A DNA stretch of 64,000 nucleotides. Source: Deinococcales bacterium. Its GTDB lineage: Bacteria; Deinococcota; Deinococci; Deinococcales; JAAFIG01. The first letter of the stretch is position 1. Each line of letters opens with the position of its first letter. Location: positions 128,214 through 192,213 of the forward strand of contig JAAFIG010000001.1 of the NCBI GenBank assembly GCA_013298595.1. The letters run 5' to 3'. The translations under genes were made by a program, and so were the position numbers. This document shows, piece after piece, positions 1 to 64,000 of this stretch. The notes below the pieces were generated by a model, which saw only the letters and a program-made list of their open reading frames with translations, was not told the origin of the DNA and searched no databases.

Positions 1-252
1 GAGAGTGGTTTTGAAAGCGGTTGGATTATTTGCCCAAATTCGCCTCAACAAATTCCGCTCGAGACAGGACAAACTTTTAGTTTACTTGCCCTCGAGTCTT
101 GTCAAGGTATCAATTTAATCAATGCTAAATGGAATCTCGAGCACGCCGATTTACTGTTTGGCTCGAGTCTTGGTATTTCCAACATTGCACTTGGTGCCAT
201 CACCATCCAACTCGAGCAAGGTTGTGCTTTGTTGATTGGGCAAAATCAGTAG
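1..252 (+). CDS. C-terminal part of an unrecognised protein (83 residues)
   Basis: The first frame is open from base 1 to a TAG at 250-252, so this is the 3' end of a gene that starts outside the window. The visible 83 residues contain three Cys and several Leu-Glu pairs written as CTCGAG. There is no transmembrane segment or motif that I recognise. The frequent iterated palindrome and sensible codon use suggest real coding sequence. The function cannot be named from this fragment. Confidence 0.6.
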   Translation, partial: ESGFESGWIICPNSPQQIPLETGQTFSLLALESCQGINLINAKWNLEHADLLFGSSLGISNIALGAITIQLEQGCALLIGQNQ

Positions 253-436
253 ATTTACCAGCGCTTCTTTAAGATTTGATAAACGGATTACTCGAGGTAT
301 TTTCACAAACTCACCTCGAGAATAAATCTTTACAGAACGTATTTATTCTTATTTTAACGTTCGTTTAACCTTTTAACTTTAAGCTTCCGCCATCACCAAG
401 ATGTGACGATGTTGAAAAACATCAAAAGGAGCATTT

Positions 437-1591
437 ATGAAACAGCTTTTGAAAGCGATACTCGGACTGGTCGCCATTGCCACCTGCTCAGCTTGTAACA
501 CCACACCAACCAATGCAAATTTACCAAACGTGCGATTAGTCGGTGTTGCCAGCAATGTCACACCACAAGGTTTCACTGTGGTTGGCACCAAAGTGATTAG
601 TAGTAAAACCAATGTTGGCGCAATGAGCATCGCTAATGGCAGCGTTGTCGATGTGCGCGGCAAACATAAATCCGATGGCAGTGTCGAAGCGAACGAAATT
701 ATCGAAGATACCGAAATCAAAGGCAGCATCTCGAGCATAGACATTACTACTTCCATCATTGTTGTGCTTGGTCAAACTATCCAAGCCGATCTCAACACCG
801 TTTACGAAGGCTCGGATTCCAGCAGCCTCAGCTTAGCGACCTTAAAAATCGGCGATTACATCGAAGTGTCTGGTTTACGCCAAGCTGATGGTTCGTTACT
901 CGCCAGCCGCATCGAACTCGAGAAAGGCGAAAAACCCAGTGGTATGGAAGTCAAAGGTGTTGTTACTAATTTAGACACCACCGCGAAAACCTTTATGCTT
1001 GGCATGCAAGTCGTGGATTACAGCGGCTTAACCAATGTAACACTCACCAATGGTCAGCGAGTTGCAGTCAAAGGCACTTTGAATTCTAGCAGTGTTTTAA
1101 TTGCCAATCGCATTGTTAGCAAAAACGAAAATGATCCCGAAAAACCACGCAGCGGCGACATTGAACTCGAAGGTACAGCTGGAAATGTAGACACAACCGC
1201 AAAAACCTTAGTTGTTCACGGATTCCAAGTGGATTATTCCAATGCGATCCTCGAAGGTACACCAGTCAATGGTTCTCGAGTTGAAGTTGAAGGCACAATC
1301 CAAGCTGATGGTTCAGTCAAAGCCAGCAAAATCGAATTCAAAGGTAAAAGATCAGAAGTCAACGATGCTGACGGCAAAGTCGAAGGTAAAATTAGTGCCA
1401 TCGATGCAACTACCAAAACCATCACCGTCGCAGGTATTATTTACAGCACCGATGCCAACACAAAAGTCGAACGCGGCGAAATTCACATTGCATTTACCGA
1501 CTTACAAATCAACGATAATGTCGAAGTGCGCTTTGTTACCACCAGCAAATTAGCCCGTAAAATCGAAATCGAACTACCAGAAAGCAAGTAA
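437..1591 (+). CDS. DUF5666-repeat lipoprotein
   Basis: A 384-residue exported protein. A strong ribosome binding site (AAAGGAG) precedes the ATG. The N-terminus is a lipoprotein signal ending in a Cys at about residue 20 (ATCSAC). The rest consists of about five copies of a 60-70 residue unit with the pattern 'G-x-I/V-x-x-hD-x-x-T/x-x-h-x-V ... G-x-x-V-x-V-x-G ... DGSVxAxxI', typical of DUF5666 (small beta-barrel, OB-like) domains. The repeats start near residues 35, 95, 170, 245 and 315. It is probably a surface-anchored lipoprotein of unknown role. A hairpin terminator follows. Confidence 0.8.
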   Translation: MKQLLKAILGLVAIATCSACNTTPTNANLPNVRLVGVASNVTPQGFTVVGTKVISSKTNVGAMSIANGSVVDVRGKHKSDGSVEANEIIEDTEIKGSISSIDITTSIIVVLGQTIQADLNTVYEGSDSSSLSLATLKIGDYIEVSGLRQADGSLLASRIELEKGEKPSGMEVKGVVTNLDTTAKTFMLGMQVVDYSGLTNVTLTNGQRVAVKGTLNSSSVLIANRIVSKNENDPEKPRSGDIELEGTAGNVDTTAKTLVVHGFQVDYSNAILEGTPVNGSRVEVEGTIQADGSVKASKIEFKGKRSEVNDADGKVEGKISAIDATTKTITVAGIIYSTDANTKVERGEIHIAFTDLQINDNVEVRFVTTSKLARKIEIELPESK

Positions 1592-1608
1592 ACAACCCAA
1601 ACAACCTC

Positions 1609-1637
1609 GAGGGAATGCCAACCAGCATTCCCTCTTT
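1609..1637 (+). terminator. Terminator after the DUF5666 lipoprotein
   Basis: A perfect 10-bp inverted repeat (GAGGGAATGC / GCATTCCCTC) with a 6-nt loop, followed by TTT, 17 bp after the stop codon. CTCGAG copies flank the stem on both sides. Confidence 0.7.
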
Positions 1638-1696
1638 GCACTCGAGAAAGTGCTGTAATACCGTTTTGGACGGAGTTTCTTACGCTCTCTAGAGCG

Positions 1697-1730
1697 GTTT
1701 TAATATGAGGCGTACGCCTCATATTAAAAC
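1697..1730. repeat. Perfect 34-bp palindrome before the 1757 gene
   Basis: The two arms of 17 nt match exactly around a central GCGTACGC; the core is GAGGC-GTA-CGCCTC flanked by AT-rich arms. It lies 26 bp before the start of the next gene. Weakly inverted ends (ATACC near 1659 and GGTAT near 1736) suggest a small MITE-like unit. The GAGGC/GCCTC core resembles the short palindromes at 33503 and 42321. An operator role is possible but not shown. Confidence 0.6.
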
Positions 1731-1756
1731 AGAATTGGTATAAGCTAAGGACACGT

Positions 1757-2512
1757 ATGAAGGCGAAAATTCTGATCTGCATCATCGTTTTTTTACTCAG
1801 CTCGAGTGCTGTTGCACAACGTTTCTCGGCGAGTATGCAATTCTCGAGCAGCGGCGCTTTTACCAGCGTCGCAGCTTTATCGCAATTTGAAATCAGTTAC
1901 AACCTAATCCCCGAAGTTACCATTGGTACAAAAATCGGATTACAAAACGCGCCCATCGGCTCGGTACTGGTCTTGCAACTCAACCCATACGCTTATTACC
2001 GATTACTGATCGCTTCGAGCGAAACATGGTTTATCACAGGATTTGCTGGACTGAACATCAACTTTAATTACGCCCCACCCAGCACCAGCACAACCCAAAT
2101 CAATGTGGTTGCCCAAGCCCGCAAAGAAGGACAAGGTAGCGGCAAAGAAGAAGACACCATCATCAACCCAATCCCCAACACCAGCGCCTTAGGTTTTCGT
2201 ATCACCACCTTACTTGGCATAGACGGAGCTTGGTTCATAGACGAACAAAACAGCGTATATGCTGGCATCGAAACCGATGTGATAATGCCACCTAACTTCG
2301 CCATTATTATCTACCCCTACCTCGAGTACGATTTACAAGTCTTAGACAACTTAACCATCGCCATAGGTGGCTACTTAAACATCGGCAACCCATTTGCTTA
2401 CAACATTTACGCTTATGGTTTTTACAACCTGACCAGCAGCAGCGCCCTCAGGCTCGAGCTAAACTGGAACGGACAATTTGGTGTTTCACTCAAATGGACA
2501 TTGAAGGGATAA
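1757..2512 (+). CDS. Secreted outer-membrane beta-barrel-like protein
   Basis: A 251-residue protein with a clear Sec signal peptide (hydrophobic stretch at residues 5-20, cleavage near AVAQ). The mature part is rich in alternating aromatic, Gly and hydrophobic residues, with a final strand ending in a Lys-Gly tail, as in small outer-membrane barrels. A polar Gly/Glu/Lys segment near residues 115-135 could be a surface loop. AAGGA lies 8 bp before the ATG. No family name can be given. The protein at 61790 has the same general design. Confidence 0.7.
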   Translation: MKAKILICIIVFLLSSSAVAQRFSASMQFSSSGAFTSVAALSQFEISYNLIPEVTIGTKIGLQNAPIGSVLVLQLNPYAYYRLLIASSETWFITGFAGLNINFNYAPPSTSTTQINVVAQARKEGQGSGKEEDTIINPIPNTSALGFRITTLLGIDGAWFIDEQNSVYAGIETDVIMPPNFAIIIYPYLEYDLQVLDNLTIAIGGYLNIGNPFAYNIYAYGFYNLTSSSALRLELNWNGQFGVSLKWTLKG

Positions 2513-2518
2513 GAACAA

Positions 2519-2541
2519 GCGAACACAAGGTTCGCCCCTAC
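2519..2541. repeat. Short hairpin repeat, copy 1 (GCGAAC/GTTCGC + CCCCTAC)
   Basis: Stem GCGAAC-acaag-GTTCGC followed by CCCTAC. A second copy lies at 2637-2661. Both are preceded by GGATAAGAACA, so the repeated unit is about 35 bp. The stem differs between the copies by compensatory changes. Confidence 0.65.
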
Positions 2542-2636
2542 CCAACAATGTTTTTCGCCACGCAACGATCATCATCACCTAACTCGAACGATTCATTTTT
2601 TTGATTTCTACTTAACGTCAGTTGCGGATAAGAACA

Positions 2637-2661
2637 GGGCGACCACAAGGGTCGCCCCTAC
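2637..2661. repeat. Short hairpin repeat, copy 2 (GGGCGACC/GGGTCGCCC)
   Basis: The same unit as at 2519, with stem GGGCGACC / GGGTCGCCC and the same CCCCTAC tail. The paired substitutions relative to copy 1 keep the stem, which points to selection or spread as a structured repeat. Apart from this, the stretch 2513-2816 holds only the hairpin repeat at 2684-2750 and no gene that I can support. Confidence 0.65.
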
Positions 2662-2683
2662 GAGATAAAATCACGATTTTTAT

Positions 2684-2750
2684 GTAGGGGAGGGTCTTCT
2701 TGCTCGTAAGATAGCACCTGACGGGCTACTCGCGCTTGTACCCTCCCTGC
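2684..2750. repeat. Dispersed 40-bp hairpin repeat nested in an outer stem
   Basis: A copy of the dispersed family TTGCTC-(4-5 nt)-stem-aCC-loop-GG-stem-TCGCGCTT. Here the inner stem is TAGC/GCTA with loop TGAC. An 8-bp outer stem (GGGAGGGT / ACCCTCCC) encloses it. Other copies are at 30624, 31699, 31715, 31780, 31890 and 43152. Confidence 0.75.
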
Positions 2751-2816
2751 TTCAATATATTAGGCGAAATTTTTACTTTCAATTTCGTAAATAACTTTAA
2801 CCGCAACTGCGGTTAC

Positions 2817-3413
2817 TTACTTTACTCGCAATGGGCTGTTGCTGATTTCTCGAGTGGTGCTTTCATCGGCGACAACATCACCGTTGTTTGGATTAACGTA
2901 CAAGTAACTGACCAATTTGCCACTCCAGTAGACTTGTACCTCGAGTCCTCGAGGGCTGGGTAATAAGTACGCTCCAAATTTGAGATCGGTAGCTTCTTTA
3001 CGCAGGTCGGTTAAGTACGTGCCTAGGGCAACTTCGCTGGGTAGGGCGCTGGGGCGGTAGTTGCTGCGCTCGAGAAATGGTACGGGTTTGCCGTTGTTTG
3101 GATCAAGGGTTAGGGCTGCGACGACTTTGCCGTTGATCTCGAGGCTGGCTTTCAGGGCTGTGGGTTTTTCGGCTGTGAGTGCAACCCATGCTGCACCAAC
3201 TTTGAGGTCGCGGCGAATATCGGCGAGGCGACGTGGTACGTCGAGGGTACGTGGGTTCGGTTGCATGAAAAACGAGCTTGGACGACCCGCTGGCGCACTT
3301 GGGGCTGGGGCTTCGTTGTGATGGTTTATGTGTTCACCGGGTTCGGCTCGAGCAGACACTACTGTACTTAACAGCATGGTTGCTGCTAGTAAGGCTCGAG
3401 GGATTCGTTTCAT
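2817..3413 (-). CDS. Secreted PepSY-like protein of a two-component operon
   Basis: A 198-residue exported protein with a signal peptide (residues 1-23, cleavage near ARA). After a low-complexity His/Pro/Ala linker come two similar halves (about residues 60-115 and 125-190). Each ends in a 'V-x-x-L-x-L-DPNNGxxVP'-type motif, as in PepSY folds. Its ATG overlaps the stop of the histidine kinase gene (ATGA), so it is translationally coupled to it. A periplasmic modulator of the kinase is a reasonable inference, because PepSY proteins often sit beside such kinases. The PepSY assignment is by pattern only. Confidence 0.7.
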   Translation of the reverse strand: MKRIPRALLAATMLLSTVVSARAEPGEHINHHNEAPAPSAPAGRPSSFFMQPNPRTLDVPRRLADIRRDLKVGAAWVALTAEKPTALKASLEINGKVVAALTLDPNNGKPVPFLERSNYRPSALPSEVALGTYLTDLRKEATDLKFGAYLLPSPRGLEVQVYWSGKLVSYLYVNPNNGDVVADESTTREISNSPLRVK

Positions 3414-4801
3414 GACTTTACCTGTGTTGGATTGTACTGGGTTTGGGTTAAACGAGGATTGGAACTGGGCAGTTGTACCAAAAAAACCGCTCCTGTTTGG
3501 CTTAGCTCGAGACTGATGGTGCCGTTGTGTGCTCTGGTGGCTTCTTGGGCAATGGCAAGTCCGAGTCCTGTGCCGCTCGAGTGAGTGCCTTTTTGGAAGC
3601 GATCAAACAATTGCTTGTGTTGGGATTCGGGGATGCCTGTGCCATCATCCCAGACGCGGATGGAGATGGTTTCGGCGTTGCGTTCGGCACGAAGACCAAA
3701 TTCTTGTTTGGCAAAACGCAGTGCATTACCGAGTAAATTAGCAAAGATGCGGTTGAGTGCCACGGTATCACCAATGATCTCGAGGTCGGCTGGCAACTCG
3801 AGGTAAAAGGTTTTTTGTTGTTGCTCGGCAGCTCGAGTGTAGGTTTCTATGGTGCTGGAAAGGGCTTGTTGTAAAACCAGTGGCACTGGTTTTTCTAAAC
3901 CCGCCTCGAGTCTGGCTAATGCCAGTAAATCCTCGGTCAGAACACCCAAACTTTTGCAGCGCTCAAGCACTCGCTCAAGCACTTCGCGGTAAGCTGCGGC
4001 TTCTCTGGGGCGACGCAAAGCAACCTCGAGTTCGGTGCGAAGCACAGCAATCGGGGTGCGTAAATCATGGGCTGCATTAGCAGTAAAACGGCGTTGGGCT
4101 TCGACCAAGTGCTCGAGTCGGACAAGCATGGCGTTCAGGTCGCGTTTGAGTGCGCCGATTTCGTCAGGGCGAGCCGCATTCGGAATTCGGGCGGTTAAAT
4201 TTCCACTCGAGACAGCAGCAGCAGTACTGGCAATTTGTCGTAATGGGCGCAGTAACCACGAGGTCAGGACTTGTCCGAGTAGCAACGCAATCAGCGTGGC
4301 AGCCGATGCCCACAGCACAATCGAAGTTCGTAATTGCTCGAGACTGCTGGCACCACTAAGATCATCGGCGGCAACCACCACCACAAAAGCTAATTGGTAA
4401 ACACCACTGCTGGAGAAAATTGGGAAAGCAGCAGCAGCTCGAAAATTGTTTAAACCAGCCACTGTTTCTTGGTTACGCTCGAGGGTTTGCCAAGCAGAAG
4501 TTGGTAACATAAAGTCTTGACTCGAGCCGAGTGTTTCTTGAATGGTTTTATCGGGACGCAATAAAAACGCGCTGACATTACCTAAGCGTTCGGCTAATGG
4601 CGAAGGTGGCGGTTCGCGCAAACTCACTTGTTCGGCTTGTAATGCCAATTGCGCGTATTGCCGAGCCAAGGTTTGTAACTCGAGCCGAAAAGACCGCTCT
4701 AAACTCTGCGCGGTAATGGCATACAACAATGCACCTAAGCCCAGAACTGCCAGCAGCAAAGTCAGGCTAAATCCGAGCAACAAGCGCCAACGTAAACTCA
4801 T
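3410..4801 (-). CDS. Sensor histidine kinase (HAMP, HisKA, HATPase)
   Basis: A 463-residue membrane kinase. Transmembrane segments at about 7-29 and 155-185 enclose an extracytoplasmic sensor region of about 125 residues. A HAMP linker follows (about 186-240), then the H-box (AAHDLRTPIAVLR, His near 246), the N-box (NLLGNALRFA) and G-boxes (DDGTGIP, GTGLGLAIA). Its start overlaps the stop of the response regulator gene by 4 bp, and its stop overlaps the start of the PepSY-like gene by 4 bp. All three form one coupled operon. The signal sensed is unknown. Confidence 0.95.
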   Translation of the reverse strand: MSLRWRLLLGFSLTLLLAVLGLGALLYAITAQSLERSFRLELQTLARQYAQLALQAEQVSLREPPPSPLAERLGNVSAFLLRPDKTIQETLGSSQDFMLPTSAWQTLERNQETVAGLNNFRAAAAFPIFSSSGVYQLAFVVVVAADDLSGASSLEQLRTSIVLWASAATLIALLLGQVLTSWLLRPLRQIASTAAAVSSGNLTARIPNAARPDEIGALKRDLNAMLVRLEHLVEAQRRFTANAAHDLRTPIAVLRTELEVALRRPREAAAYREVLERVLERCKSLGVLTEDLLALARLEAGLEKPVPLVLQQALSSTIETYTRAAEQQQKTFYLELPADLEIIGDTVALNRIFANLLGNALRFAKQEFGLRAERNAETISIRVWDDGTGIPESQHKQLFDRFQKGTHSSGTGLGLAIAQEATRAHNGTISLELSQTGAVFLVQLPSSNPRLTQTQYNPTQVKS

Positions 4802-5466
4802 TTTTCCTCGCGCAGCACATATCCCATGCCTCGAACAGTATGAATTAAAGCTGTGGCAAAAGGTTTATCCACTTTGGCACGCAGATACGAAATAAACACA
4901 TCCACAACATTAGAATCAAAACCACTTTCGTCTGCCCAAATCGCCTCGGCAATCCGTGCTCGAGACAAGACTTCTTCAGGGTGCCGCAATAAAAACTCGA
5001 GCAACGCATACTCTTTTGCCGATAAAGCCAGCACTGTTCCAGCCCGTTCGACTCTTTGCTTAGCGGGGTCTAAACGCAAATCGGCAATTTGTAACTCGGC
5101 GGTACTACCCGCTCGTCTCGAGAGTGCCCGTAAACGCGCCAGCAATTCGCCAAAGTCAAAGGGTTTACATAAGTAATCATCGGCACCCGCGTCTAAACCA
5201 GCAATCCGATCACGCACATCATCTCGAGCTGTTAAAAAAAGTACAGGGCAACGAACCCCTGCCTCGCGGATACGTTTACAAGCCTCAAATCCGCTGCCAT
5301 CGGGTAGCATCACATCAAAAACCATTACATCGTACTCGGTCAGGGTTGCTTGATAAACAGCCTCTTCAGTTAAACCAGATTCGTCCACCACATAATTTTC
5401 TTCACGCAAACCACTTGCCAAAGCGGTTCGTAATTGGACTTCATCCTCGAGTAACAATAATCGCAT
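4798..5466 (-). CDS. OmpR-family response regulator
   Basis: A 222-residue two-component regulator, first gene of the operon with the kinase at 3410. The receiver domain (1-115) has the acidic pocket E7-D8, phospho-acceptor D51 (MVFDVMLPDG) and the conserved Lys in CKPF near 102. The C-terminal winged helix (about 125-220) ends in TVRGMGYVLRE, the usual OmpR wing. The spacer to the divergent enoyl-CoA hydratase gene is only 77 bp and must hold both promoters. An AATAAT box ends 5 nt before this ATG. Confidence 0.95.
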   Translation of the reverse strand: MRLLLLEDEVQLRTALASGLREENYVVDESGLTEEAVYQATLTEYDVMVFDVMLPDGSGFEACKRIREAGVRCPVLFLTARDDVRDRIAGLDAGADDYLCKPFDFGELLARLRALSRRAGSTAELQIADLRLDPAKQRVERAGTVLALSAKEYALLEFLLRHPEEVLSRARIAEAIWADESGFDSNVVDVFISYLRAKVDKPFATALIHTVRGMGYVLREEK

Positions 5467-6320: not shown

Positions 6321-6337
6321 AAGAGTATAATCAACCC

Positions 6338-7561: not shown

Positions 7562-10090
7562 ATGAAAGCCGAAACTCATCCAGCATATCAAGAGGAATCT
7601 CAACAAATAGATACAGCACGAGTAGCTATTGAACGTCACCTCAAATCTTTACCTGAAGCAGTAGATGCAGGAGTTTATCCTAGTGATTCGAGGGGTGCTG
7701 CATTTGAGATTTCTAAGCTCCGTGAAGGAATTGAATCACTTCGAGAAGGACCTTATTTCGGACGACTTGATTATGAATTACAGGACAAAAAATTTGAAAG
7801 GATTTATGTTGGCAAGCACGGTCTCAGAGAAAACGGTTGGCGCATTGTAAATTGGCAGTCCGCTATTGGTGGGAAAATCTATTCTGACAATGAAGTAGAG
7901 AGAATTGAGCTTAGAAATAGCATAACCACAATAAAAATCTCTCTAAGACGAAAGTTTTTGATAGTAGACTGGAAACTAAAAGACATATCTGATCTTATTA
8001 GAGGGACAATACAAACTGAAGATAAAGAAATAGCACAAAACAGTTCCTCACATAATTCACTACTTGAGGAAACCCTTAACCGCAGAAATTCAATTACACC
8101 ACAAGATATTATTGCCACAATACAAAAAGATCAAAACCAGTTAATTCGTGTTAGTCACAATCAAACGCTTGTAATAAACGGTGTGCCTGGCAGTGGAAAA
8201 ACTGCTATTCTTTATCATCGTCTATCGTATCTGGCTTATTCAGAAACAAATAATGGATTGACGCTTGACCGTGTTCGTATTATGGGACCAAACACATATT
8301 TTTTGCGCCAGATGACAGCTCTATTACCAAATCTTGAGATTATCGGATTGAGACAGTTTGTATTTGGTGCTTTTGCAATGAGAAAACTTGGTTTGCGTTT
8401 GTTTCAGGAAAATAGTTCAACACAATCCCAAACTTATATTCTTGAAGATCCTGTTCTCGATTTACAACTTAGTTTGGAACATACACCTGAAGAGCAACAT
8501 TTAGGCTGGATGCGTTCACACATACGTGGTGATTTGCGAATTAAGCAACTCCTTGAACGTTACTTGGAGACACTAACTTGGAATGTCAAAATTCCAATCC
8601 AAGGGTTGAGCTTAGTTAGTAAAAAAATTCCACAGGGAGATGATGCTTCTAGGTCAACTGAAATTTTGCTACTCAGTCATCAGGTGATAAGGCAAGTGCA
8701 CGCTGCATATGCAAATCTAACAGTTGACTTGAAAACCAAACAAAAAAACTTTCGTAGGAAATTAACTCAAATAGCATTAGAAAAAGCTGGACTTACTTTG
8801 AGTGAACAAATAAATTCAGAGATGGCTAATACTATTCGTGGCTTAGTTTTGCGCTTTACGAATCAATATTGGACACCGTTTCAAGTGTATACGGCGTATA
8901 CAAGGCTTTTTAAAAATTTTCAACTGCTCAAAGAATTAGGTAGTGATTTATTCACTTCAAAAGAACTGGCTTTGCTACTTGAACCTGAAAGCATGTCTCG
9001 AAATGAAGATGTTATAGAAGAGGATTCCGAAGATACTGAAATACAAGAACTACAACAAGAAAACCCAGACAACAAAAAATCCCGCCCCCCTCGAGTTATT
9101 GCTTTGCATGATCTACCCGGCTTAATGATGTTACATCAAATCGATACACCCGTGCAAAAGCCTGAATTTGACCACTTAATGATTGATGAAGCACAAGACT
9201 GCTCACCTTTGCAAATTTATGTTCTTAAAAACCTAATAGGCGATGGCACAATGACAATCGCCGGAGACATAGCACAGGGAATCCACGAATATAGGGGATT
9301 GAAAAGTTGGCAAGACATTAGTGCTATGTTTCCAAAAGAAAATTTTCAGATCGAGCAGGTTAAGTATAGCTATCGCTCAACTGTCGAAATTACAGTATTT
9401 GCAAATAAAGTATTGCAAAACTCAGGATTGCCAAATATTACAGAAGCAATACCTTTTCAGCGTCATGGATCAGAACCTACAGTATACATAGCTTCTAATA
9501 ATCTTACGATGTTACTCCAATTAGCAAAAGATGTAAAAGAACTTAAACAAGTAGAAACCCAAACAATTGGGATTATATGCAAGACACAAAATCAAAAGAT
9601 TGAAGTCCTAGACGCATTAGGGGAAAATGGTATCAATTTTTCAAGTATTGACAACGAAGTAGATCAAGAATTAACACAAATAAAAGTTTTAACTGCCATT
9701 GAAGCAAAAGGTCTCGAGTTTGAAGTTGTGCTTGTTCCATTTGCAGACGCAGATACATATTCCCGAGAAAAGCCATTTGATGCAAAGCTACTTTATGTGT
9801 GTGTTACTCGGGCTTTAGATTATTTGCGACTTTATCTAGTTGGGAAACCCAGTTTGTTATTTCCAAAAGAAAAATCATTAATTAAATCAAACTATCAACC
9901 TATCAAACCAATTGGAATGCCAGTTACACGAGAACGGCTTTCATTATCGTCTGACGAGGATGCTTTTCAACAAAATTTCTTTGACCGACGAGATGCAAAT
10001 CGAGGCATTGGGCATATAGCTAGAGATAATGGTCGCTTCGGCTCTATGCCTTTGTATGATGATTATAGTGACGAAGGATCACCTGATTAA
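7562..10090 (+). CDS. helD: HelD-like superfamily 1 helicase/ATPase
   Basis: An 842-residue UvrD/HelD-type motor. The N-terminal part has the HelD pattern: a coiled-coil start (EESQQIDTARVAIERHL), then PYFGRLDYE near 70 and ERIYVGKHGL..NWQSAIGG near 85-110. Helicase motifs are Q (DQNQL), I (GVPGSGKTAILYHR near 210), II (DHLMIDEAQD near 540), III/IV (GDIAQGIHEYRG, YSYRST) and V/VI (TAIEAKGLEFEVVLVP, LLYVCVTRALDYL). HelD recycles RNA polymerase; I infer this role or a DNA helicase role. The gene is AT-rich and has only two CTCGAG sites, unlike its neighbours, which suggests recent transfer. TAAATT (7550-7555) lies 6 nt before the ATG. Confidence 0.85.
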   Translation: MKAETHPAYQEESQQIDTARVAIERHLKSLPEAVDAGVYPSDSRGAAFEISKLREGIESLREGPYFGRLDYELQDKKFERIYVGKHGLRENGWRIVNWQSAIGGKIYSDNEVERIELRNSITTIKISLRRKFLIVDWKLKDISDLIRGTIQTEDKEIAQNSSSHNSLLEETLNRRNSITPQDIIATIQKDQNQLIRVSHNQTLVINGVPGSGKTAILYHRLSYLAYSETNNGLTLDRVRIMGPNTYFLRQMTALLPNLEIIGLRQFVFGAFAMRKLGLRLFQENSSTQSQTYILEDPVLDLQLSLEHTPEEQHLGWMRSHIRGDLRIKQLLERYLETLTWNVKIPIQGLSLVSKKIPQGDDASRSTEILLLSHQVIRQVHAAYANLTVDLKTKQKNFRRKLTQIALEKAGLTLSEQINSEMANTIRGLVLRFTNQYWTPFQVYTAYTRLFKNFQLLKELGSDLFTSKELALLLEPESMSRNEDVIEEDSEDTEIQELQQENPDNKKSRPPRVIALHDLPGLMMLHQIDTPVQKPEFDHLMIDEAQDCSPLQIYVLKNLIGDGTMTIAGDIAQGIHEYRGLKSWQDISAMFPKENFQIEQVKYSYRSTVEITVFANKVLQNSGLPNITEAIPFQRHGSEPTVYIASNNLTMLLQLAKDVKELKQVETQTIGIICKTQNQKIEVLDALGENGINFSSIDNEVDQELTQIKVLTAIEAKGLEFEVVLVPFADADTYSREKPFDAKLLYVCVTRALDYLRLYLVGKPSLLFPKEKSLIKSNYQPIKPIGMPVTRERLSLSSDEDAFQQNFFDRRDANRGIGHIARDNGRFGSMPLYDDYSDEGSPD

Positions 10091-20451: not shown

Positions 20452-22935
20452 TTACGCACCAGGTTGAGGAACAATTGTAGCTGTAGGCACAATGATTGGT
20501 GCTTCTTCGCTGGCAAATTGTGCTTCTGGAGTTGGCGGAACCACGTCCTGCACAAGATGAAGCGGCTCGAGCATGGTATCAAGAACTTCTTGCACATCTT
20601 CGACCAAGGTGATCTCGAGTTCTTTGCGAATGGTCTCAGGAACATCTTTTAAGTATGGGGCATCGCCTTTAGGAAGCAATACTTTACGAATACCTGCTTG
20701 GTACGCTCCAAGGAGTTTTTCTTTGACACCACCAATAATTAAGACCTTGCCACGTAAACTAATTTCACCCGTCATGGCAATATCGGCTCGAGCTGGGCGT
20801 TTAGTAATGGCGCTAATCACACTGGTGGCAATGGCAATACCCGCACTTGGACCGTCTTTTGGCATACCACCACTGGGGAAATGCACATGGATATCCAAGT
20901 TCTTATGGAAATCGGGGTCAGCACCATACTCGGTGGCATGAGCACGCAAGTAAGCAATAGCAGCTTGGACTGACTCTTTCATCACATCGCCAAGGGAACC
21001 TGTGAAACTGACTTTACCAGTACCTGGTGTGGCAAGGGTTTCGATTAAAAGAATACCACCGCCCACCGAGGAGAAATACAAGCCTGTGGCAACACCAATT
21101 TGCGATTTTTTCTCTTTCGATTCAATCTCAAACATTGGCACACCAAGGTAATCTTCGACATCCTTGCCATCTACGTTCTTGAGACCTTCCCACGGTTTCT
21201 CGAGGGCTTCTCGAGCCACTTTACGGGCAAGTTTTTGAATCATTCGGTCAAGGTTACGCACACCTGCTTCTTTGGTGTATTCCTGAGCAATTCGCTCTAA
21301 GGCATGGTCTGTGACTTGGAGCTTATTTTCCAATCCATGAGATTTAATTTGCCGTGGCAAACGGAATCCTTTAGCAATTTCGATCTTTTCTTGAAGTGTA
21401 TACCCAGGGATTTCGATCACTTCCATACGGTCAAGTAATGGTCGTGGGATGTTACCAAGATTATTGGCAGTGGTAATGAACATGACTTGCGATAAATCGT
21501 ATTGCACTTCCAAGTAGTGATCTTGAAAAGTATGGTTTTGTTCTGGGTCGAGCACCTCGAGCATGGCACTTGAAGGGTCGCCACGCCAATCGCTGCTCAT
21601 CTTGTCAATTTCGTCTAAGAGAATAATTGGGTTAACCACACCCGCTTGTTTCATACTTTGAATAATCCGCCCTGGTAAGGAACCAATATAGGTACGGCGA
21701 TGACCACGAATTTCGGCTTCGTCGCGCACACCACCAAGGCTCATCCGTACAAATTGGCGGTTTAATGCCCTTGCAATGCTTTTACCAAGACTGGTTTTAC
21801 CAACACCAGGAGGTCCAGACAAACACAGAATGGGGGCACGTAACGCCATATCCTCTTTGTCTTTATCGTCGCGGTCTTTGGCAGCTTTAGCATCAAGTTC
21901 TTCGCGCATACCTTGGGTTAATTGGCGTACTGCCAAAAACTCGAGGATACGTTCTTTGACTTCGTCTAAACCATGATGATCGGAATCAAGGATTTCGCGG
22001 GTGCGTTTAATATCAAGAATTTCTTCGTCGCGTTTAACCCAAGGCACATCGAGTAACCAATCCAAGTAATTACGAACAACACTACTTTCTGGGCTACCAC
22101 CTGGGGTTCGCTCGAGGCGAGCTAATTCTTTTAAGGCTTTTTCTTTGACTTTTTCGGGCATACCAGCGTTTTCGATTTTCTGGCGCACATCGTCCACTTC
22201 GGCAACGGCTTCTTCGCCACCACCGAGTTCTTTACCAATGGCTTTCATTTGTTCACGCAAGTAATACTCGCGTTGATTTTGATCCATTTGTTCTTTGACT
22301 CGAGCAGCAATTTTCTTATCCATTTCAAAGCGTTCTAAGTCGCGGTTTAAGTAACCAATAACTTTTTCTAAACGCTCACGAATCGAAAGTGTCTCGAGAA
22401 TGGTTTGTTTGTCTAAAACTTCCCATGTTGCATGATGGGTGATGGTATCGGCAATCACACCTGGGTCGGTGAGTTGACGTAAGTGTTCAAGATGGATGTT
22501 ATCCAACCGCATGTTTTTGTTCTGCCCAACGTACTTATCAAACGAAGATTTAGCTTCGTCTATCAGGACACGCAAAGTATTTGCATCGGCATCTACATTT
22601 GGGTAAATGGTTTCTGCCACAGCCCGTAAATACGGTAATGGTAAGTACCCCGTAATCTTGACGCGTTCGATAGGCTCGACAAGCACCTCGAGTGTTTGAT
22701 CTGGCATTCGCACCACTTGTTTAATGGCTGCCAAAGTACCAATATCGTATAGCTCTTCGCCACTTGGGTCGTCGGTGTTTTGATCGCGTTGAGTTAAAAG
22801 AATCACGCGGCGATCAGAAGCTTGAGCTTCCTCGACACTACGGCGCGATTTGGCACGACCAACAGCCACAGTGTTGGCATTTCCAGGCATATAAACATAA
22901 CTTCTTAATGCAAGTACAGGTATTTCCCAGCGCAT
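20452..22935 (-). CDS. lon: ATP-dependent protease Lon
   Basis: An 827-residue LonA protease. The N-terminal substrate-binding domain is at 1-200. The AAA+ module has Walker A GPPGVGKTS near 375 and Walker B with ILLDEIDKM near 440. The C-terminal Ser-Lys protease domain carries the catalytic Ser in PKDGPSAG near 693 and the Lys near 735. It degrades misfolded and regulatory proteins. AAGGAG precedes the ATG. A 315-bp leader separates it from clpX, and a perfect HspR-type operator lies 328 bp upstream, so heat-shock control is likely. CTCGAG is less frequent here than in neighbours. Confidence 0.96.
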   Translation of the reverse strand: MRWEIPVLALRSYVYMPGNANTVAVGRAKSRRSVEEAQASDRRVILLTQRDQNTDDPSGEELYDIGTLAAIKQVVRMPDQTLEVLVEPIERVKITGYLPLPYLRAVAETIYPNVDADANTLRVLIDEAKSSFDKYVGQNKNMRLDNIHLEHLRQLTDPGVIADTITHHATWEVLDKQTILETLSIRERLEKVIGYLNRDLERFEMDKKIAARVKEQMDQNQREYYLREQMKAIGKELGGGEEAVAEVDDVRQKIENAGMPEKVKEKALKELARLERTPGGSPESSVVRNYLDWLLDVPWVKRDEEILDIKRTREILDSDHHGLDEVKERILEFLAVRQLTQGMREELDAKAAKDRDDKDKEDMALRAPILCLSGPPGVGKTSLGKSIARALNRQFVRMSLGGVRDEAEIRGHRRTYIGSLPGRIIQSMKQAGVVNPIILLDEIDKMSSDWRGDPSSAMLEVLDPEQNHTFQDHYLEVQYDLSQVMFITTANNLGNIPRPLLDRMEVIEIPGYTLQEKIEIAKGFRLPRQIKSHGLENKLQVTDHALERIAQEYTKEAGVRNLDRMIQKLARKVAREALEKPWEGLKNVDGKDVEDYLGVPMFEIESKEKKSQIGVATGLYFSSVGGGILLIETLATPGTGKVSFTGSLGDVMKESVQAAIAYLRAHATEYGADPDFHKNLDIHVHFPSGGMPKDGPSAGIAIATSVISAITKRPARADIAMTGEISLRGKVLIIGGVKEKLLGAYQAGIRKVLLPKGDAPYLKDVPETIRKELEITLVEDVQEVLDTMLEPLHLVQDVVPPTPEAQFASEEAPIIVPTATIVPQPGA

Positions 22936-33629: not shown

Positions 33630-33652
33630 CTTGCCTCGAGCGTCAGCTCAAC

Positions 33653-33784
33653 CTTTCAGGGCGAGGTGCAATTCCTCACCGGCGGTGAAGTCCTTAATCG
33701 GGAATAAGTCCGCGAGCTTCGAGAATTTATCACTCGAGGTTGAGGCAGAAAAGCTGCCACCGACGGTTAAAGTCCGGATGAAAG
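33653..33784 (+). promoter_or_regulatory. FMN riboswitch (RFN element)
   Basis: All conserved RFN blocks are present in order: AGGGCGAGGTGCAATTCC, TCACCGGCGGT, AAGTCCGCGAGC, a variable arm, GCCACCGACGGTTAAAGT and CCGGATG. P1 pairs CTTTCA (33653-33658) with TGAAAG (33779-33784). The ribosome binding site (GAAGGGG) starts directly after P1, so FMN probably blocks translation of the binding protein. The variable arm contains a CTCGAG. Confidence 0.95.
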
Positions 33785-33795
33785 AAGGGGAAATT

Positions 33796-34803: not shown

Positions 34804-34820
34804 AAACAACACTTATACAT

Positions 34821-34852
34821 AAACCTCCTCGAGAATGTTCTCGAGGAGGTTT
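34821..34852. terminator. Bidirectional terminator built on CTCGAG
   Basis: A perfect 15-bp inverted repeat AAACCTCCTCGAGAA-TG-complement between the binding-protein gene (+) and the Gfh1-like gene (-). Each arm contains one CTCGAG. Confidence 0.85.
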
Positions 34853-34861
34853 ACATTTGGG

Positions 34862-48124: not shown

Positions 48125-48127
48125 GAA

Positions 48128-57317: not shown

Positions 57318-58532
57318 TTAATCCTTAACCAGTTCGATATCGCTTAGTTCGTGCCACGGCAAACCCCATTTGTTCATTGCGTCCATAAATGGGTCTGGGT
57401 CGAATTGTTCCATGTTCCACACACCCGCTTTCATCCATTTACCCTCGAGCATCAGCATAGCACCAATCATGGCTGGAACACCTGTGGTGTACGAAATGCC
57501 TTGGGCTTGGACTTCTTTGAAGGTTTCGGCATGATCGCAGACATTGTAAATAAAATGGGTTTTTGGCTTACCATCTTTAATGCCTTTGATTTGCACGCCT
57601 ATGCAAGTTTGCCCTGTGTAATTGGCAGCTAGGCTTTCAGGAGCTGGCAAAATTGCTTTTAAGAATTCAATCGGGGCAATGTCCACACCTTTAATCCGAA
57701 TAGGTTCGATGCTGGTCATACCGACTGTCTCGAGCACACTTAAATACTTGATGTATTGTTCGCCAAAGGTCATCCAGAAACGAGCACGTTTAAGGGTTGG
57801 GAAATGCTTAACTAAGCTCTCGAGTTCTTCGTGGTACAGAACAAAGCTTTTACGGGTTTGGACTCGAGGGTAGTAAATATCTTGGCTAATCTCGAGTGGC
57901 GTGGTTTCGACCCATGCGCCGTTTTCCCAGTAACGCCCATTAGCAGTAATTTCACGGATATTAATTTCTGGGTTGAAATTGGTAGCAAAGGCTTTACCGT
58001 GGCTACCATTGTTACAATCCACAATATCCATGTAGTGCATTTCGTCAAAGTGATGCTTAGCATGGTAAGCACTGTAAACATTGGTTGCGCCTGGGTCGAA
58101 GCCCGAACCAAGTAGCGCCATTAAACCAGCATTCTGGAAACGTTCTTGGTACGCCCATTGCCAACTATACTCAAACTTTGCAAGGTCTTTGGGTTCGTAA
58201 TTAGCAGTATCAAGGTAATGCACACCCGTCTCGAGACACGCATCCATAATTGGCAAATCTTGATATGGCAAGGCAACGTTAATCACCATTTTGGGTTTGT
58301 ATTCACCAATTAATTTGACCAAGGCTGCGACATCGTCGGCATCCACTTGGGCTGTGGTTACCACTGTTTTACTATTTGGAAAGAATTCTTTAATTTCGGC
58401 AGCAATTTTATCGCATTTGGCTTTGGTGCGACTGGCAATCATTAACTCAGTAAATACCGAATCGTTCTGCGCGCATTTTTTAGCAACCACACCGCCGACA
58501 CCGCCAGCACCAATCATTAGGACTCGAGACAT
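57318..58532 (-). CDS. Saccharopine-dehydrogenase-like protein, probable carboxynorspermidine synthase
   Basis: A 404-residue oxidoreductase. N-terminal Rossmann fold MSRVLMIGAGGVGGVVAKKC; PYQDLPIMDACLETGVHYLDTANYEP (about 105-130) and GFDPGATNVYSAY (about 165) follow the carboxynorspermidine dehydrogenase/synthase pattern. That enzyme condenses a diamine with aspartate semialdehyde using NADPH, in polyamine synthesis. The decarboxylase partner nspC is not within the window. TATTCT on the minus strand ends 6 nt before the ATG. Confidence 0.85.
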   Translation of the reverse strand: MSRVLMIGAGGVGGVVAKKCAQNDSVFTELMIASRTKAKCDKIAAEIKEFFPNSKTVVTTAQVDADDVAALVKLIGEYKPKMVINVALPYQDLPIMDACLETGVHYLDTANYEPKDLAKFEYSWQWAYQERFQNAGLMALLGSGFDPGATNVYSAYHAKHHFDEMHYMDIVDCNNGSHGKAFATNFNPEINIREITANGRYWENGAWVETTPLEISQDIYYPRVQTRKSFVLYHEELESLVKHFPTLKRARFWMTFGEQYIKYLSVLETVGMTSIEPIRIKGVDIAPIEFLKAILPAPESLAANYTGQTCIGVQIKGIKDGKPKTHFIYNVCDHAETFKEVQAQGISYTTGVPAMIGAMLMLEGKWMKAGVWNMEQFDPDPFMDAMNKWGLPWHELSDIELVKD

Positions 58533-58561
58533 GGGTTAAGAATACCTTAATTACGTAAGTC

Positions 58562-59641: not shown

Positions 59642-59707
59642 AGCTTCTCGAGTCTACCAAGAAAATACGTGGGCATGGGTGAAGCGTTTCTTGTATGCTA
59701 GGACTCA

Positions 59708-60877
59708 ATGCAATTAGCAACTCGAGTGCAAAGTTTTACGCCCAATCCGTTTACGGAACTCACAATGCTGGCAGTGCAACATCAAGCTGTCAATTTAGGA
59801 CAGGGTTTCCCTGATTGGGCACCGCCTGATTTTGTCCTTGAAGCAGCCCAGCAAGCTTTCAAAACCGCTTCACATCAGTACAGCCCACCTAGAGGCGTGC
59901 CGAGATTGTTACAAGCTGTGGCTGATTTGCTCGAGCCACAAATTGGCAGCATAGATGCTTTGAATGAAATCACCATCACGGTTGGTGCTACCCAAGCTTT
60001 ACATGTGGCATTACAAACCTTGGTCAATCCGCTTGATGAAGTGATTTTACTCGAGCCTAAATTTGATTCGTACAGCCCACAAGTCAAACTCTGCGATGGC
60101 GTACCTGTTTTTGTGCAATTAGACATCGAAGGTGAGCAATGGGTTTTGAACCTCGAGAAAGTTCGCGCTGCGATCACACCACACACTAAGGTTTTACTGC
60201 TGAACACCCCGCATAACCCAACAGGCAAAGTCTTTACTCAAACCGAACTCGAGGGAATCGCTGCCCTTGCCATAGAACATGACCTTTGGATTATCTCGGA
60301 TGAAGTCTACGACCGTTTAGCATTTGCTGCACCTCACATCAGTATTGCCAGTTTACCAGGCATGTCCGAACGCACCATCACCATTGGCAGTGCTGGTAAA
60401 ATATTCTCGGTCACTGGGTGGCGTATTGGCTGGGCAGTTGCACCAGCGCATATCAGTGCTGCCCTGCGTGGCGCTCACCAATGGATGCCTTTTCATGCCA
60501 CAGGACCAGTCCAAGAAGCCATTGCCAGCAGCCTCGAGCAAGCAGCCAATAACCAGTATTATCAGCAACTGCACGAACGTTTTATTCAGCAACGCAACAC
60601 TTTATACGCGGTCCTTGAAGATGTTGGTTTTACCCCCTTAATGCCCGAAGGTGGTTATTTTATTGTCGCAGGTATTGATCAATTCTCGAGCGATGTACAC
60701 AGTTTTGCTAAACATTTGGTTACCAAAATTGGGGTAGCCGCCATGCCAGTACCAATTTTTTACGACCCTAGTACTCGAGGCAGCGCCCCCAATGCCCTGC
60801 GTTTTGCGATGTGTAAATCACTCGAGACCATTGCCGCCGCCGCTAATCGGCTCGAGCAATTAAAACCGCACGCATAG
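59708..60877 (+). CDS. Class I PLP-dependent aminotransferase
   Basis: A 389-residue fold-type I enzyme. Motifs: LGQGFPDWAPPDFVLEAA (about 28), SPPRGVPRLLQAVADLL, NTPHNPTGKVF (about 160), ISDEVYDRLAF (about 195, PLP Asp/Tyr) and GSAGKIFSVTGWRIGW (about 228-243, catalytic Lys). It is close to methionine/kynurenine aminotransferases by the QGFPD start. The specific substrate is open. TATGCT lies 8 nt before the ATG. Confidence 0.9.
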   Translation: MQLATRVQSFTPNPFTELTMLAVQHQAVNLGQGFPDWAPPDFVLEAAQQAFKTASHQYSPPRGVPRLLQAVADLLEPQIGSIDALNEITITVGATQALHVALQTLVNPLDEVILLEPKFDSYSPQVKLCDGVPVFVQLDIEGEQWVLNLEKVRAAITPHTKVLLLNTPHNPTGKVFTQTELEGIAALAIEHDLWIISDEVYDRLAFAAPHISIASLPGMSERTITIGSAGKIFSVTGWRIGWAVAPAHISAALRGAHQWMPFHATGPVQEAIASSLEQAANNQYYQQLHERFIQQRNTLYAVLEDVGFTPLMPEGGYFIVAGIDQFSSDVHSFAKHLVTKIGVAAMPVPIFYDPSTRGSAPNALRFAMCKSLETIAAAANRLEQLKPHA

Positions 60878-60960
60878 TTCAAGATTCTTTTTATCAACCT
60901 CGAGCTATGCCTGAAACTGACTATAAAGTTGTTGTTTGTACCAACATCAGGAGACAACCA

Positions 60961-61751
60961 TGAAACTCGAGAATCGAAAAGGTGCAACCCGTGTGTCCGA
61001 CATCCCCAAACCAGTTCTTGAAGGGTTAAATACAGGCACCCTCGAGAGTGTTAATTTAACTGAATGGCTGGCTGTTGATGCCACAAAATTACTTGAACAC
61101 GCCTTGGTTTCGCTTAAACTCAAACAAACAAAAAACTTGCTTGCGGCTGTACAAGACCTTGCAACGCTTGGCATCATGCAGCGCACCGAACGCATTGCAG
61201 GTTTACTCGATAATGCAGGGGTTTCAATTCAACTGCTCTCGAGCCACCACTCCGATACAATTCGTTGTTGGGCAGCATTTATTGCTGTAACCCGAGCCAC
61301 AACATTGCAAGCAAAACTCGAGGCAGTGCAACCTTTTGCTGCCGATTTACATTTTGGTGTTCGAGAAATCGCTTGGATGGCTTGGCGACCTCATTTGAAC
61401 GCAAACCTAGGCATTGGATTAACATTGCTTGAAGCCTGGACACAAGCTGATGATGCCAACCTCAGACGTTTTGCCAGTGAAGTCAGCCGTCCACGTGGCG
61501 TTTGGTGCGCTCATATTCAAGCTCTCAAAGACAAGCCTGAATTGGCATTGCAATTACTCGAGCCATTGCGTTCTGATGATTCAAAGTACGTTCAAGCCAG
61601 CGTTGCCAACTGGCTTAACGATGCCAGTAAAACCCAAGGCAACTGGGTTGAATCTGTCTGTGCTCGTTGGCTCGAGCAAAGCCCGAGCAAAGAAACCAAA
61701 TGGATTGTCAACCGTGCTTTACGCAGCCTCCGTAAGCAAAAAGAAGAGTAG
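60961..61751 (+). CDS. AlkD/AlkC-like HEAT-repeat DNA alkylation repair protein
   Basis: A 263-residue all-helical protein of tandem HEAT-like repeats. The C-terminal region RRFASEVSRPRGVW ... YVQASVANWLNDASK (about 175-225) and IVNRALRSLRKQ is the signature of AlkC/AlkD-type DNA glycosylases, which remove 3-methyl/7-methyl purines. The N-terminal part is less typical, so activity is not certain. CAGGAGA precedes the ATG. Confidence 0.85.
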
Positions 61752-61775
61752 ACGAAACACCTAGTTCGTCTACTC
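61746..61775. terminator. Bidirectional terminator overlapping the alkylation-repair stop
   Basis: Perfect 11-bp stem GAGTAGACGAA / TTCGTCTACTC with an 8-nt loop; the left arm contains the stop codon. It lies between convergent genes. Confidence 0.75.
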
Positions 61776-61789
61776 TTGTACCTCGAGTA

Positions 61790-62248
61790 TTAGAAACTGT
61801 AACGCACACCAAAACCTAATCGCCAAAAAATTGGGTTAGTAAATAATAAACTCAGTTCGCCATATGCCGATAAACCACCACCTAACGAATACTTAGCACC
61901 TGCCAATGCACCCACTGCAAAAGGTCCACTTGGCACCAATGGAATGACCACTCGAGGTCCGCCATAAATGACAAAATTCTGCACTTGAAAAGTTGCCAAA
62001 GCAGCTAAACCCAGCCCTAATCCAAAACTATTGCCAATAATTCGTCCTTCAAGGTCGGCTCGGGCGTTAATACCAATTGGTCCAACTCGAGCTAAATCTT
62101 CAATCTCGAGGTTGATACCAAAAACCAAACTGCTGGTGATATCGCTTCCTGCTGTACCGCTGAGGCTACCACCTACCGAAAAGCGTTGTGCTCCTGCCAA
62201 ACTCGAGAATCCCAGAAGTGCGACCAATACAAATAACCATTTTTTCAT
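61790..62248 (-). CDS. Small outer-membrane beta-barrel-like protein
   Basis: A 152-residue exported protein. Signal peptide 1-20 (GAQ cleavage). The mature part alternates Gly/Ala/hydrophobic strands and ends in FGVRYSF, a C-terminal aromatic as in outer-membrane barrels. GAGGAGG precedes the ATG. Similar in design to the C-terminal domain of the SLH protein and to the gene at 1757. Confidence 0.72.
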   Translation of the reverse strand: MKKWLFVLVALLGFSSLAGAQRFSVGGSLSGTAGSDITSSLVFGINLEIEDLARVGPIGINARADLEGRIIGNSFGLGLGLAALATFQVQNFVIYGGPRVVIPLVPSGPFAVGALAGAKYSLGGGLSAYGELSLLFTNPIFWRLGFGVRYSF

Positions 62249-62363
62249 ACGACCTCCTCAGTTTTTGTTACTGGGGTCATTGTACGTCAGGGGGCGTTAA
62301 AAAAGCGTGAATTGCAGATTTTGATTGTGATAGACAAATTACCTTCAGTCAAATAATTTGGTT

Positions 62364-62594
62364 CTATGGCGTGTTCGCCTTGCCATACTGCCATTGTCCT
62401 GTTGTACCACCACTCCAAAAGCACTCACCTTTGGGTTTAATCAGTAATGCCTGCCGTAAACCCTCGAGTGGCACTCGCACTGCAAAACGGGTTTTGCTAT
62501 GCCAAACCTCGAGATGCGCTAAACCAAGTACAGATGTAACTTTGGCTGCACGGTTCACAGCAAGGTCAAATAAAGCATTGGGGGCATGATCCAT
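62364..62594 (-). CDS. Hypothetical small protein downstream of the histidine kinase
   Basis: A 76-residue protein if ATG 62594 is used, 8 nt after the kinase stop. An upstream start at 62615 would overlap the kinase end. It looks like a soluble beta-containing domain (HLEVWHSKTRFAVRVPLEGL), with two CTCGAG in frame. No motif recognised, no clear ribosome binding site; it is probably expressed with the kinase if real. Confidence 0.4.
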   Translation of the reverse strand: MDHAPNALFDLAVNRAAKVTSVLGLAHLEVWHSKTRFAVRVPLEGLRQALLIKPKGECFWSGGTTGQWQYGKANTP

Positions 62595-62601
62595 ACAATA
62601 G

Positions 62602-63885
62602 CTACGAGTGAGCACTTAAAAAACCAATACCAACTCGAGCGCCTCCTTGTGCTAAATTTTCAGCTTTAACTTTGCCTGCATGAGCGTCAGCAATAGCTGC
62701 AACAATGGCTAAACCTAAACCAGTGCCAGTGCCTTGTTTAACAAAAGGTTCAAAAGCTTCTGCCAGGATTTCTGGGCTAAAACCAATCCCTTTATCCTCG
62801 AGCCAAATCCAAGTGTGTTCGGCAGTAATCTCGAGTGTAAATTGCGTTGCACCACTGCCATGATCTTCGGCATTTTTGACCAAGTTTTCGATGGCTAACT
62901 CGAGTAAATCTCGTTCGGCGTTAATGGTGGCATCGCCTTGAACTGGTAATTCAAAATTGGCTTCGAGGAAATCACGTAATGCGATGGGTTGCCCTTGGAC
63001 TGTGCCGCGACCCTCGAGCCGAGCCAGTGTTAATAAACTGCCTAAAACCCGTTCGGTACGTCTGACCGCTTCAAGGGCATATGAAGCTGCAAAAGGTTCT
63101 TCTGGGTGACGCTCGAGTACCTCGAGATAATTTCTAGCAGCCGTCAATGGGTTACGTAATTCGTGTGAGGCGTTATAAGCAAAACGTTTAGCACTTTGTT
63201 CTTGTAGGCGTGTTCGACTGAGGGTGTTACGTAAATCTGCCAGTAAACCATTCAAGGCATTGACTGCTGGTTTTAATTCTGGCAGTGGCGGAGTTGCTAG
63301 TGCCTCGAGTTGATTAGCATTTCGGCTGGCAATATCAGCAGCAAAACGCTCGAGTGGAATCAATGAACGCCGCACCCCATACGAACCAAAAAATAAGGCA
63401 ATGGTTAACAACAAAACCGCCCAAAGCCACAACGATGACTGATTACTGACCCGCACCACCACATCACTGGCTCGAACTTCCTCGAGTTGCCCTGCATTAA
63501 AACGCAGCAGCGCTGGTTCGGTACGAGTTTGTAATTGTGCCAATGTGACAGTGCGTGGAGCTGTTGGAATCACCACTGGTTTAGGTGTTGGCACAGCTGG
63601 TGGCACATTTAAAGAAACACTGTTTTGGTCTGCCACAAATGGATTTTCGTTACGTTGAGCAGCAGCATCAGGTTCGGCGGCTTTGGCACTCGGTGCTTGG
63701 GGTGTAGGTGCCACTGGTTTTGCCTTAGGTTTACTGCTGACTCGAGGGGTTGTTTCTTGACTGGCTACGGTTGTGTCTTTAAACTCGAGTTGAGGTGTTT
63801 GCCGACTAACAAACCAAATACTTAGCCCAATCAGCAACATGGCTAATGGCGCAAGCCACAATAGCAAACGTAAACGCAGTGTCAT
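62602..63885 (-). CDS. Sensor histidine kinase with proline-rich extracytoplasmic region
   Basis: A 427-residue kinase. Membrane helices at about 7-25 and 152-172 enclose a low-complexity Pro/Ala/Lys region (about 40-105) and a short domain. HAMP-like linker, H-box ASHELRNPLTAARNYLEVL (His near 237), N-box NLVKNAEDHG, G-boxes EDKGIGF and GTGLGLAI. The unordered Pro-rich part is unusual for a sensor and may span the cell wall. The start overlaps the response-regulator stop (ATGA). Confidence 0.93.
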   Translation of the reverse strand: MTLRLRLLLWLAPLAMLLIGLSIWFVSRQTPQLEFKDTTVASQETTPRVSSKPKAKPVAPTPQAPSAKAAEPDAAAQRNENPFVADQNSVSLNVPPAVPTPKPVVIPTAPRTVTLAQLQTRTEPALLRFNAGQLEEVRASDVVVRVSNQSSLWLWAVLLLTIALFFGSYGVRRSLIPLERFAADIASRNANQLEALATPPLPELKPAVNALNGLLADLRNTLSRTRLQEQSAKRFAYNASHELRNPLTAARNYLEVLERHPEEPFAASYALEAVRRTERVLGSLLTLARLEGRGTVQGQPIALRDFLEANFELPVQGDATINAERDLLELAIENLVKNAEDHGSGATQFTLEITAEHTWIWLEDKGIGFSPEILAEAFEPFVKQGTGTGLGLAIVAAIADAHAGKVKAENLAQGGARVGIGFLSAHS

Positions 63886-64000
63886 GCGTTTGCCCCATTT
63901 GAACGCAACGCATAGCCAACACCACGAATGGTTTGAATTAAATTTGGTGCACCAAGGCTGCGTCGCAAACCAGCAACCAAGGCATCTAAGGTATTAGGGT
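63882..64000 (-). CDS. Response regulator, C-terminal end (partial)
   Basis: The last 38 residues of an OmpR-type winged-helix regulator: LDALVAGLRRSLGAPNLIQTIRGVGYALR, the typical end of the DNA-binding domain. The gene begins outside the window. Its TGA overlaps the kinase ATG by 4 bp, so regulator and kinase are coupled. Confidence 0.88.
   Translation of the reverse strand, partial: PNTLDALVAGLRRSLGAPNLIQTIRGVGYALRSNGANA

Follow-up and report, generated by a model that had tools for sequence, protein, structure and literature searches.

The function of highly iterated palindromes (HIPs) has been open since HIP1 (GCGATCGC) was described in 1995. HIP1 and the alternate HIPs of cyanobacteria are short palindromes, each the dominant over-represented word of its genome and dispersed genome-wide. 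They have been lost or replaced in some relatives, and the published densities are 300–2,700 copies/Mb for the HIP1 octamer and roughly 1,000–2,000 copies/Mb for alternate HIPs; for the latter a GC (guanine plus cytosine) content of at least 75% is stated, and a derivative of 50% GC is also listed (PMC4390886). The hexamer CTCGAG has been described as the target of an orphan methyltransferase in Nocardia, which has a putative regulatory role, with clusters of the motif lying between dnaA and a DNA polymerase III gene (PMC4752239). Here, CTCGAG was analyzed in a 64,000-nucleotide stretch of the genome of a Deinococcales bacterium (the whole of this stretch is called the window below), and the hexamer behaves like a HIP: it is a palindrome, the most over-represented word, and is dispersed over genes and spacers genome-wide. 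It thus shares the core features of the class while lying outside its published density range and host group.

Exact counting gave 390 copies in the window (positions 1 to 64,000; as a palindrome, the motif has no strand and stands on both), dispersed with a mean gap of 164 bp and a largest gap of 1783 bp. This is 30.9 times the base-composition expectation and 25.0 times the equal-base expectation (390/15.6), matching the figures of about 390 copies and roughly 25-fold that the original prediction, made from the letters of the window, had put forward. The runner-up palindromic hexamer of the window, CAATTG, has 50 copies. The whole genome (4,582,226 bases) holds 27,159 copies, i.e., 5.9/kb or one per approximately 170 bases, and only 15 copies of the control word GAGCTC, which is CTCGAG reversed; together with the survey of relatives below, this count rules out an effect restricted to the window. 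Markov models of orders 0 to 4 gave observed-to-expected ratios of 31, 55, 13, 3.1, and 1.18 in the window, the last being circular because CTCGA and TCGAG nearly always belong to CTCGAG copies. When the motif was masked, the ratios for orders 1 to 4 were 92, 64, 52, and 35, and the order-4 ratio in a 562 kb genome sample was 37, showing an excess well beyond 5-mer composition; chance or base composition is ruled out as the cause by these values. An assembly or adaptor artefact was likewise rejected, because CTCGAG sits within conserved genes of several separate genomes, where it displaces other spellings of Leu-Glu. In keeping with the original prediction, no earlier account of a bacterial iterated palindrome with the sequence CTCGAG was found in the literature searched, which excluded Xu et al. 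2018, reportedly the main selection study of HIP1.

CTCGAG could in principle be the palindrome left over under heavy restriction pressure, or protected from it, since other palindromic hexamers stand at 0.3–0.5 of expectation in the hyper-rich clade defined below, which also has almost no GRGCYC words. This explanation is very improbable and largely refuted by the ratios above: avoidance of other sites cannot lift CTCGAG 30-fold, and the motif forms an isolated peak rather than a plateau, with one-mismatch words not comparably enriched. No other palindrome exceeds 2.5 times expectation in genome G000.

The survey of relatives comprised 111 genomes of the order Deinococcales. Six of them (G000–G003, G012, and G016), namely the whole of family f1 (four genomes) and both genomes of genus g11, carry about 6–8 CTCGAG/kb and are referred to as hyper-rich. 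Less enriched relatives include G008 (3.6/kb), g13 (mostly 1.4–3.1/kb), G006 (2.9/kb), and g7 (below 1.1/kb), and G004, a near relative, is at the neutral level of 0.3/kb. Several other clades of the order are enriched 4–10-fold, G008 approximately 10-fold and G025 approximately 7-fold. In a protein tree of Lon protease, whose gene in the window (20452–22935, minus strand) served as phylogenetic marker and ortholog anchor, the hyper-rich genomes form a single clade (support 99/98), with G008 and G004 as sister. The simplest history on the basis of this one gene is that a milder enrichment, present in several relatives, was boosted once and that G004 lost it. The named relatives, with protein identities of 88% and 80%, are metagenome-assembled genomes of Deinococcales bacteria; in g7, TCGA stands at 0.3 of expectation and the GC content is 68%, which suggests that this group is Thermus. 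Viral contigs rich in CTCGAG were also inspected, and no phage of the CTCGAG-rich clade was found among them; the densest were mostly GC-rich, often rich in GAGCTC too, and were judged to reflect codon or GC effects.

Genes and spacers are equally dense in G000 (5.97 vs 5.96/kb), in G002 the spacers are denser (5.8 vs 9.8/kb), and across the hyper-rich clade spacers carry 6–10 CTCGAG/kb; therefore, the excess is not a codon effect. Within genes frame 0 is the commonest, a G000 sample having 523, 199, and 156 copies in frames 0, 1, and 2, so that the predicted spread over all frames and spacers was borne out. A genome-wide palindrome that shapes codon use, as had been proposed, is supported, although not for every codon named: in G000, copies of CTCGAG account for 51% of CTC codons and 49% of GAG codons, but only 36% of CGA and 29% of TCG. 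CTCGAG spells between 66% (G000) and 84% (G012) of Leu-Glu dipeptides, compared with 3.5% predicted from codon use elsewhere (pooled), which at isolated sites corresponds to log-odds of approximately 4.6 over neutral codon use; read as selection, this would mean 2Ns of approximately 4.6. The dipeptide itself is 2.0–2.5-fold over-represented in the proteome, whereas Glu-Leu is at approximately 1, and if the sample rate holds genome-wide the surplus extrapolates to approximately 12,000 Leu-Glu dipeptides. A translation-level preference for the Leu-Glu codon pair would agree with the predominance of frame 0 and with G008 and g13, where spacers are poorer in CTCGAG than genes and where such a preference may contribute. 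As the general explanation it has very little probability, given that in the hyper-rich clade CTCGAG abounds in every frame and in spacers and that Leu-Glu, not Glu-Leu, is enriched; codon-pair bias alone is refuted for that clade by spacer density.

Where both G000 and G001 have Leu-Glu at an orthologous position, the second genome has CTCGAG in 0.78 of cases if the first does and in 0.62 if it does not, and other orthologue pairs are similar, on small counts. Sites are thus remade as much as inherited, so that raw excess conservation is not evidence for conservation of individual sites; CTCGAG is recreated wherever the protein allows it and in some cases even where the protein does not permit it. 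The saccharopine-dehydrogenase-like gene of the window (57318–58532, minus strand), which we take to be of the carboxynorspermidine dehydrogenase type, has 7 copies, and its nearest homologues outside the clade are mostly from Bacteroidota. Three clade members have 7–8 copies, eight homologues inspected from Bacteroidota and Kiritimatiellae have none, and one from Myxococcales has 3; some sites change amino acids, e.g., ATG-TCG in Bacteroidota vs CTC-GAG in the clade. Horizontal acquisition of this gene is likely and, to judge from these sequences, a gene of Bacteroidota type has gained CTCGAG within the clade, partly altering its protein. The probability of CTCGAG given Leu-Glu is only mildly heterogeneous across genes (chi2/df 1.1–1.6); among the few that are cold, two lie in methyltransferase-bearing stretches and another is the HelD/UvrD-like helicase gene of the window (7562–10090, plus strand). 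The latter has a GC content of 0.37 vs 0.45 for the window, 2 CTCGAG copies with 1 of 9 Leu-Glu sites so spelled, and overlaps the 1783-bp CTCGAG-free stretch; it probably arrived recently and has yet to be filled with the motif.

At large scale, the gaps between successive copies are close to exponential (coefficient of variation 0.93–1.17), long gaps are not lacking, pair density is flat between 60 and 400 bp, and no helical periodicity was found. Preferential uptake of CTCGAG-bearing DNA, with recombination spreading the motif, would fit such uniform coverage and the lack of an upper spacing limit, and molecular drive is known to carry uptake sequences through genes (PMC1939737). We regard this as quite improbable: the uptake sequences described so far exceed CTCGAG in length and are no palindromes, each fragment should need no more than one or a few sites, so that saturation would be expected far below 6/kb, and uptake does not predict the short-range behavior of the motif. 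Copies inside genes interfere within approximately 20 bp, which is newly shown here. Relative pair density (short distances scaled to long ones) is 0.32 at 7–9 bp, 0.31 at 10–12 bp, and 0.47 at 13–15 bp, and rises to 0.59 at 16–18 bp, 0.73 at 19–21 bp, and 0.90 at 22–24 bp. Pairs of Leu-Glu 9–24 bp apart with both spelled CTCGAG numbered 197, against 277 ± 10 under within-gene permutation, and the log-odds of approximately 4.6 at isolated sites fall by about half, to 2.0–2.7, when a second copy lies 6–14 bp away, as would be expected if two copies had one occupant. Tandem pairs at 6 bp, of which there are none, were left out of the interference count because the tandem creates GAGCTC, which the clade avoids. 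In the controls, slight clustering was seen for other palindromes and a neutral pattern for one-mismatch words, and non-CTCGAG spellings of Leu-Glu are somewhat commoner near a CTCGAG copy. Hairpin avoidance as the cause was rejected, as generic 6-bp inverted repeats show no interference (0.87–1.08) and G008 shows none. The flanks do not extend the motif to a palindromic octamer: in spacers the flank pairs C..G, T..A, and G..C stand at 0.3, 0.5, and 1.4, and a G before CTCGAG is favored 1.4-fold, while a G at −3 is disfavored (0.5), as expected because GRGCYC is avoided.

Our favored, though tentative, reading is that, in an uncultured clade of Deinococcales, CTCGAG is an element of the HIP class, kept site by site through a putative factor that recognizes it. 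The factor would recognize the double-stranded hexamer and would most likely be a dimeric protein that binds DNA in an architectural or repair-related role. Through it, intact copies of CTCGAG would be favored over mutated ones, whether by a benefit of occupancy or by repair biased to the intact site, and the force would act on each copy individually, inside genes as well as between them, with log-odds of approximately 4.6 and no kb-scale saturation, weakening with a second copy within approximately 20 bp as if one occupant were shared. The binding of a protein to CTCGAG, the importance of its occupancy, and selection or biased repair as the force are inferences from these patterns. It is possible, if somewhat unlikely, that the system is independent of methylation and consists of an abundant protein, boosted once in the clade, acting on approximately 27,000 CTCGAG sites and rewriting codons and thousands of Leu-Glu dipeptides. 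Several observations weigh against maintenance by a site-recognizing factor. No CTCGAG-recognizing factor was identified in the family searches made, and selection would have to act on 27,000 sites one by one, which is demanding; biased repair would fit as well. The interference was not seen in G008 and G025, despite their approximately 10- and 7-fold enrichment (73 pairs vs 70 ± 5), nor overall in spacers, in which hairpin stems, some with T runs, make up many of the close pairs; it may also stem from mutual exclusion of copies in mRNA or in translation.

The main rival to such a factor is methylation-linked upkeep as in the Elhai model, in which an orphan CTCGAG methyltransferase acts together with methyl-directed mismatch repair or another methyl-dependent process that favors the sites. 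Cyanobacterial HIPs accompany matching methyltransferases (PMC4390886), and the orphan enzyme of Nocardia makes CTCGAG a real methylation target (PMC4752239). The methyltransferase families PF00145, PF01555, PF07669, PF02384, and PF02086 were searched over rich and poor genomes. Many accessory genes of unassigned specificity were found in CTCGAG-rich genomes, but no orthologue common to all hyper-rich ones was seen in this non-exhaustive search of extracted open frames from genomes that are 91–94% complete (G016 58%), with some frames cut by contig ends; different methyltransferases sharing one specificity could be missed by such an orthologue comparison. Methylation-linked upkeep would also saturate near 1 site/kb, compared with 6/kb here and no distance dependence beyond approximately 60 bp; the lack of saturation between 60 and 400 bp argues against the kb-range mismatch-repair sites proposed for cyanobacterial HIPs (PMC4390886). 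Finally, where Leu-Glu is encoded, CTTGAG is not clearly commoner than CTCGAA, and hence there is no sign of 5-methylcytosine decay at CpG. We therefore consider this rival unlikely, and the suggestion in the original prediction that a modification or mismatch-repair system keeps the motif found no backing in the shared gene content of these five families or in the flat distance dependence. Its other suggestion, a chromosome-organizing role, may hold, as may a DNA-binding one.

Two further families were searched. Vsr (PF03852) is absent from the six hyper-rich genomes; the sole Vsr gene of the set, in G008 (contig C11; L088, L043), adjoins a C5 methyltransferase. The XhoI-type nuclease (PF04555) is absent from the hyper-rich genomes and G008, and occurs in 4 of 61 relatives (L408–L412: G018, G042, G048, and G009), the G009 copy being broken by stops. 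In genus g10, the carriers G018, G042, and G048 have 0.7–1.0 CTCGAG/kb vs 1.7–2.0 in their non-carrier sisters, as expected of restriction. In G000, beside a second Lon gene, a 308-residue open frame that matches nothing in Pfam or NCBIfam overlaps a gene for a 514-residue Eco57I-class methyltransferase with weak PglX-like matches (L109:12309–14733). This candidate restriction–modification pair was rejected as the shared factor, as it is strain-specific, with no match above approximately 32% identity among the loci and plasmids compared.

Apart from CTCGAG, the window shows strong restriction-site avoidance: GGCC has 0 copies vs approximately 170 expected, CCGG is very rare, some 20 palindromic hexamers do not occur at all, and GRGCYC is missing altogether. 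In all sampled f1 and g11 genomes, GRGCYC (GAGCTC, GAGCCC, and GGGCTC, with GGGCCC in most) is at approximately 0.01 of expectation, and one-off words such as GAGCGC and AAGCTC are at normal levels. This avoidance was not found in G008, G004, or G006, a distribution that matches the CTCGAG boost, and possibly reflects old restriction pressure of BanII type. Stems of the form CTCGAG-loop-CTCGAG occur in terminator-like intergenic hairpins, e.g., at L419:16818 and in the window at 34820–34853 (plus strand), where a 15-pair stem with CTCGAG in both arms is terminator-like by consensus scan. A flavin mononucleotide (FMN) riboswitch aptamer (33648–33793, plus strand) contains one CTCGAG, at 33733.

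CTCGAG thus represents an independent case of a HIP outside the cyanobacterial phylum, at a density above that of published HIPs, and its effect on the proteome is large, with Leu-Glu about doubled proteome-wide. Its graded relatives (6–8, about 3, and 0.3 copies per kb) permit a gene-presence test, and the short-range interference, acting over a footprint-like distance, is a physical clue.

Among known systems, XhoI/PaeR7I restriction–modification recognizes the same hexamer, but its PF04555 nuclease is missing from the hyper-rich genomes. Very-short-patch repair by Vsr would raise a word through biased mismatch repair, and the six richest genomes have no Vsr. The uptake sequences of Neisseriaceae and Pasteurellaceae (DNA uptake sequences, DUS, and uptake signal sequences, USS) are likewise words over-represented genome-wide, also within genes, but differ in being longer and not palindromic (PMC1939737). 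The orphan methyltransferase of Nocardia shares the hexamer, whereas the spread seen here is even over the genome in place of dnaA-region clusters; no orthologue of that enzyme was identified, no search with its sequence having been made. Compared with HIP1 and the alternate HIPs, CTCGAG has another sequence in a host from another phylum, Deinococcales rather than cyanobacteria, and lacks an octamer extension; its GC content of 67% is under the 75% stated for alternate HIPs, and its 5,930 copies/Mb exceed the published 0.3–2.7/kb, a hexamer here being compared with octamers. No conserved methyltransferase was found for it in the five families searched, and it is for CTCGAG that short-range interference has been shown.

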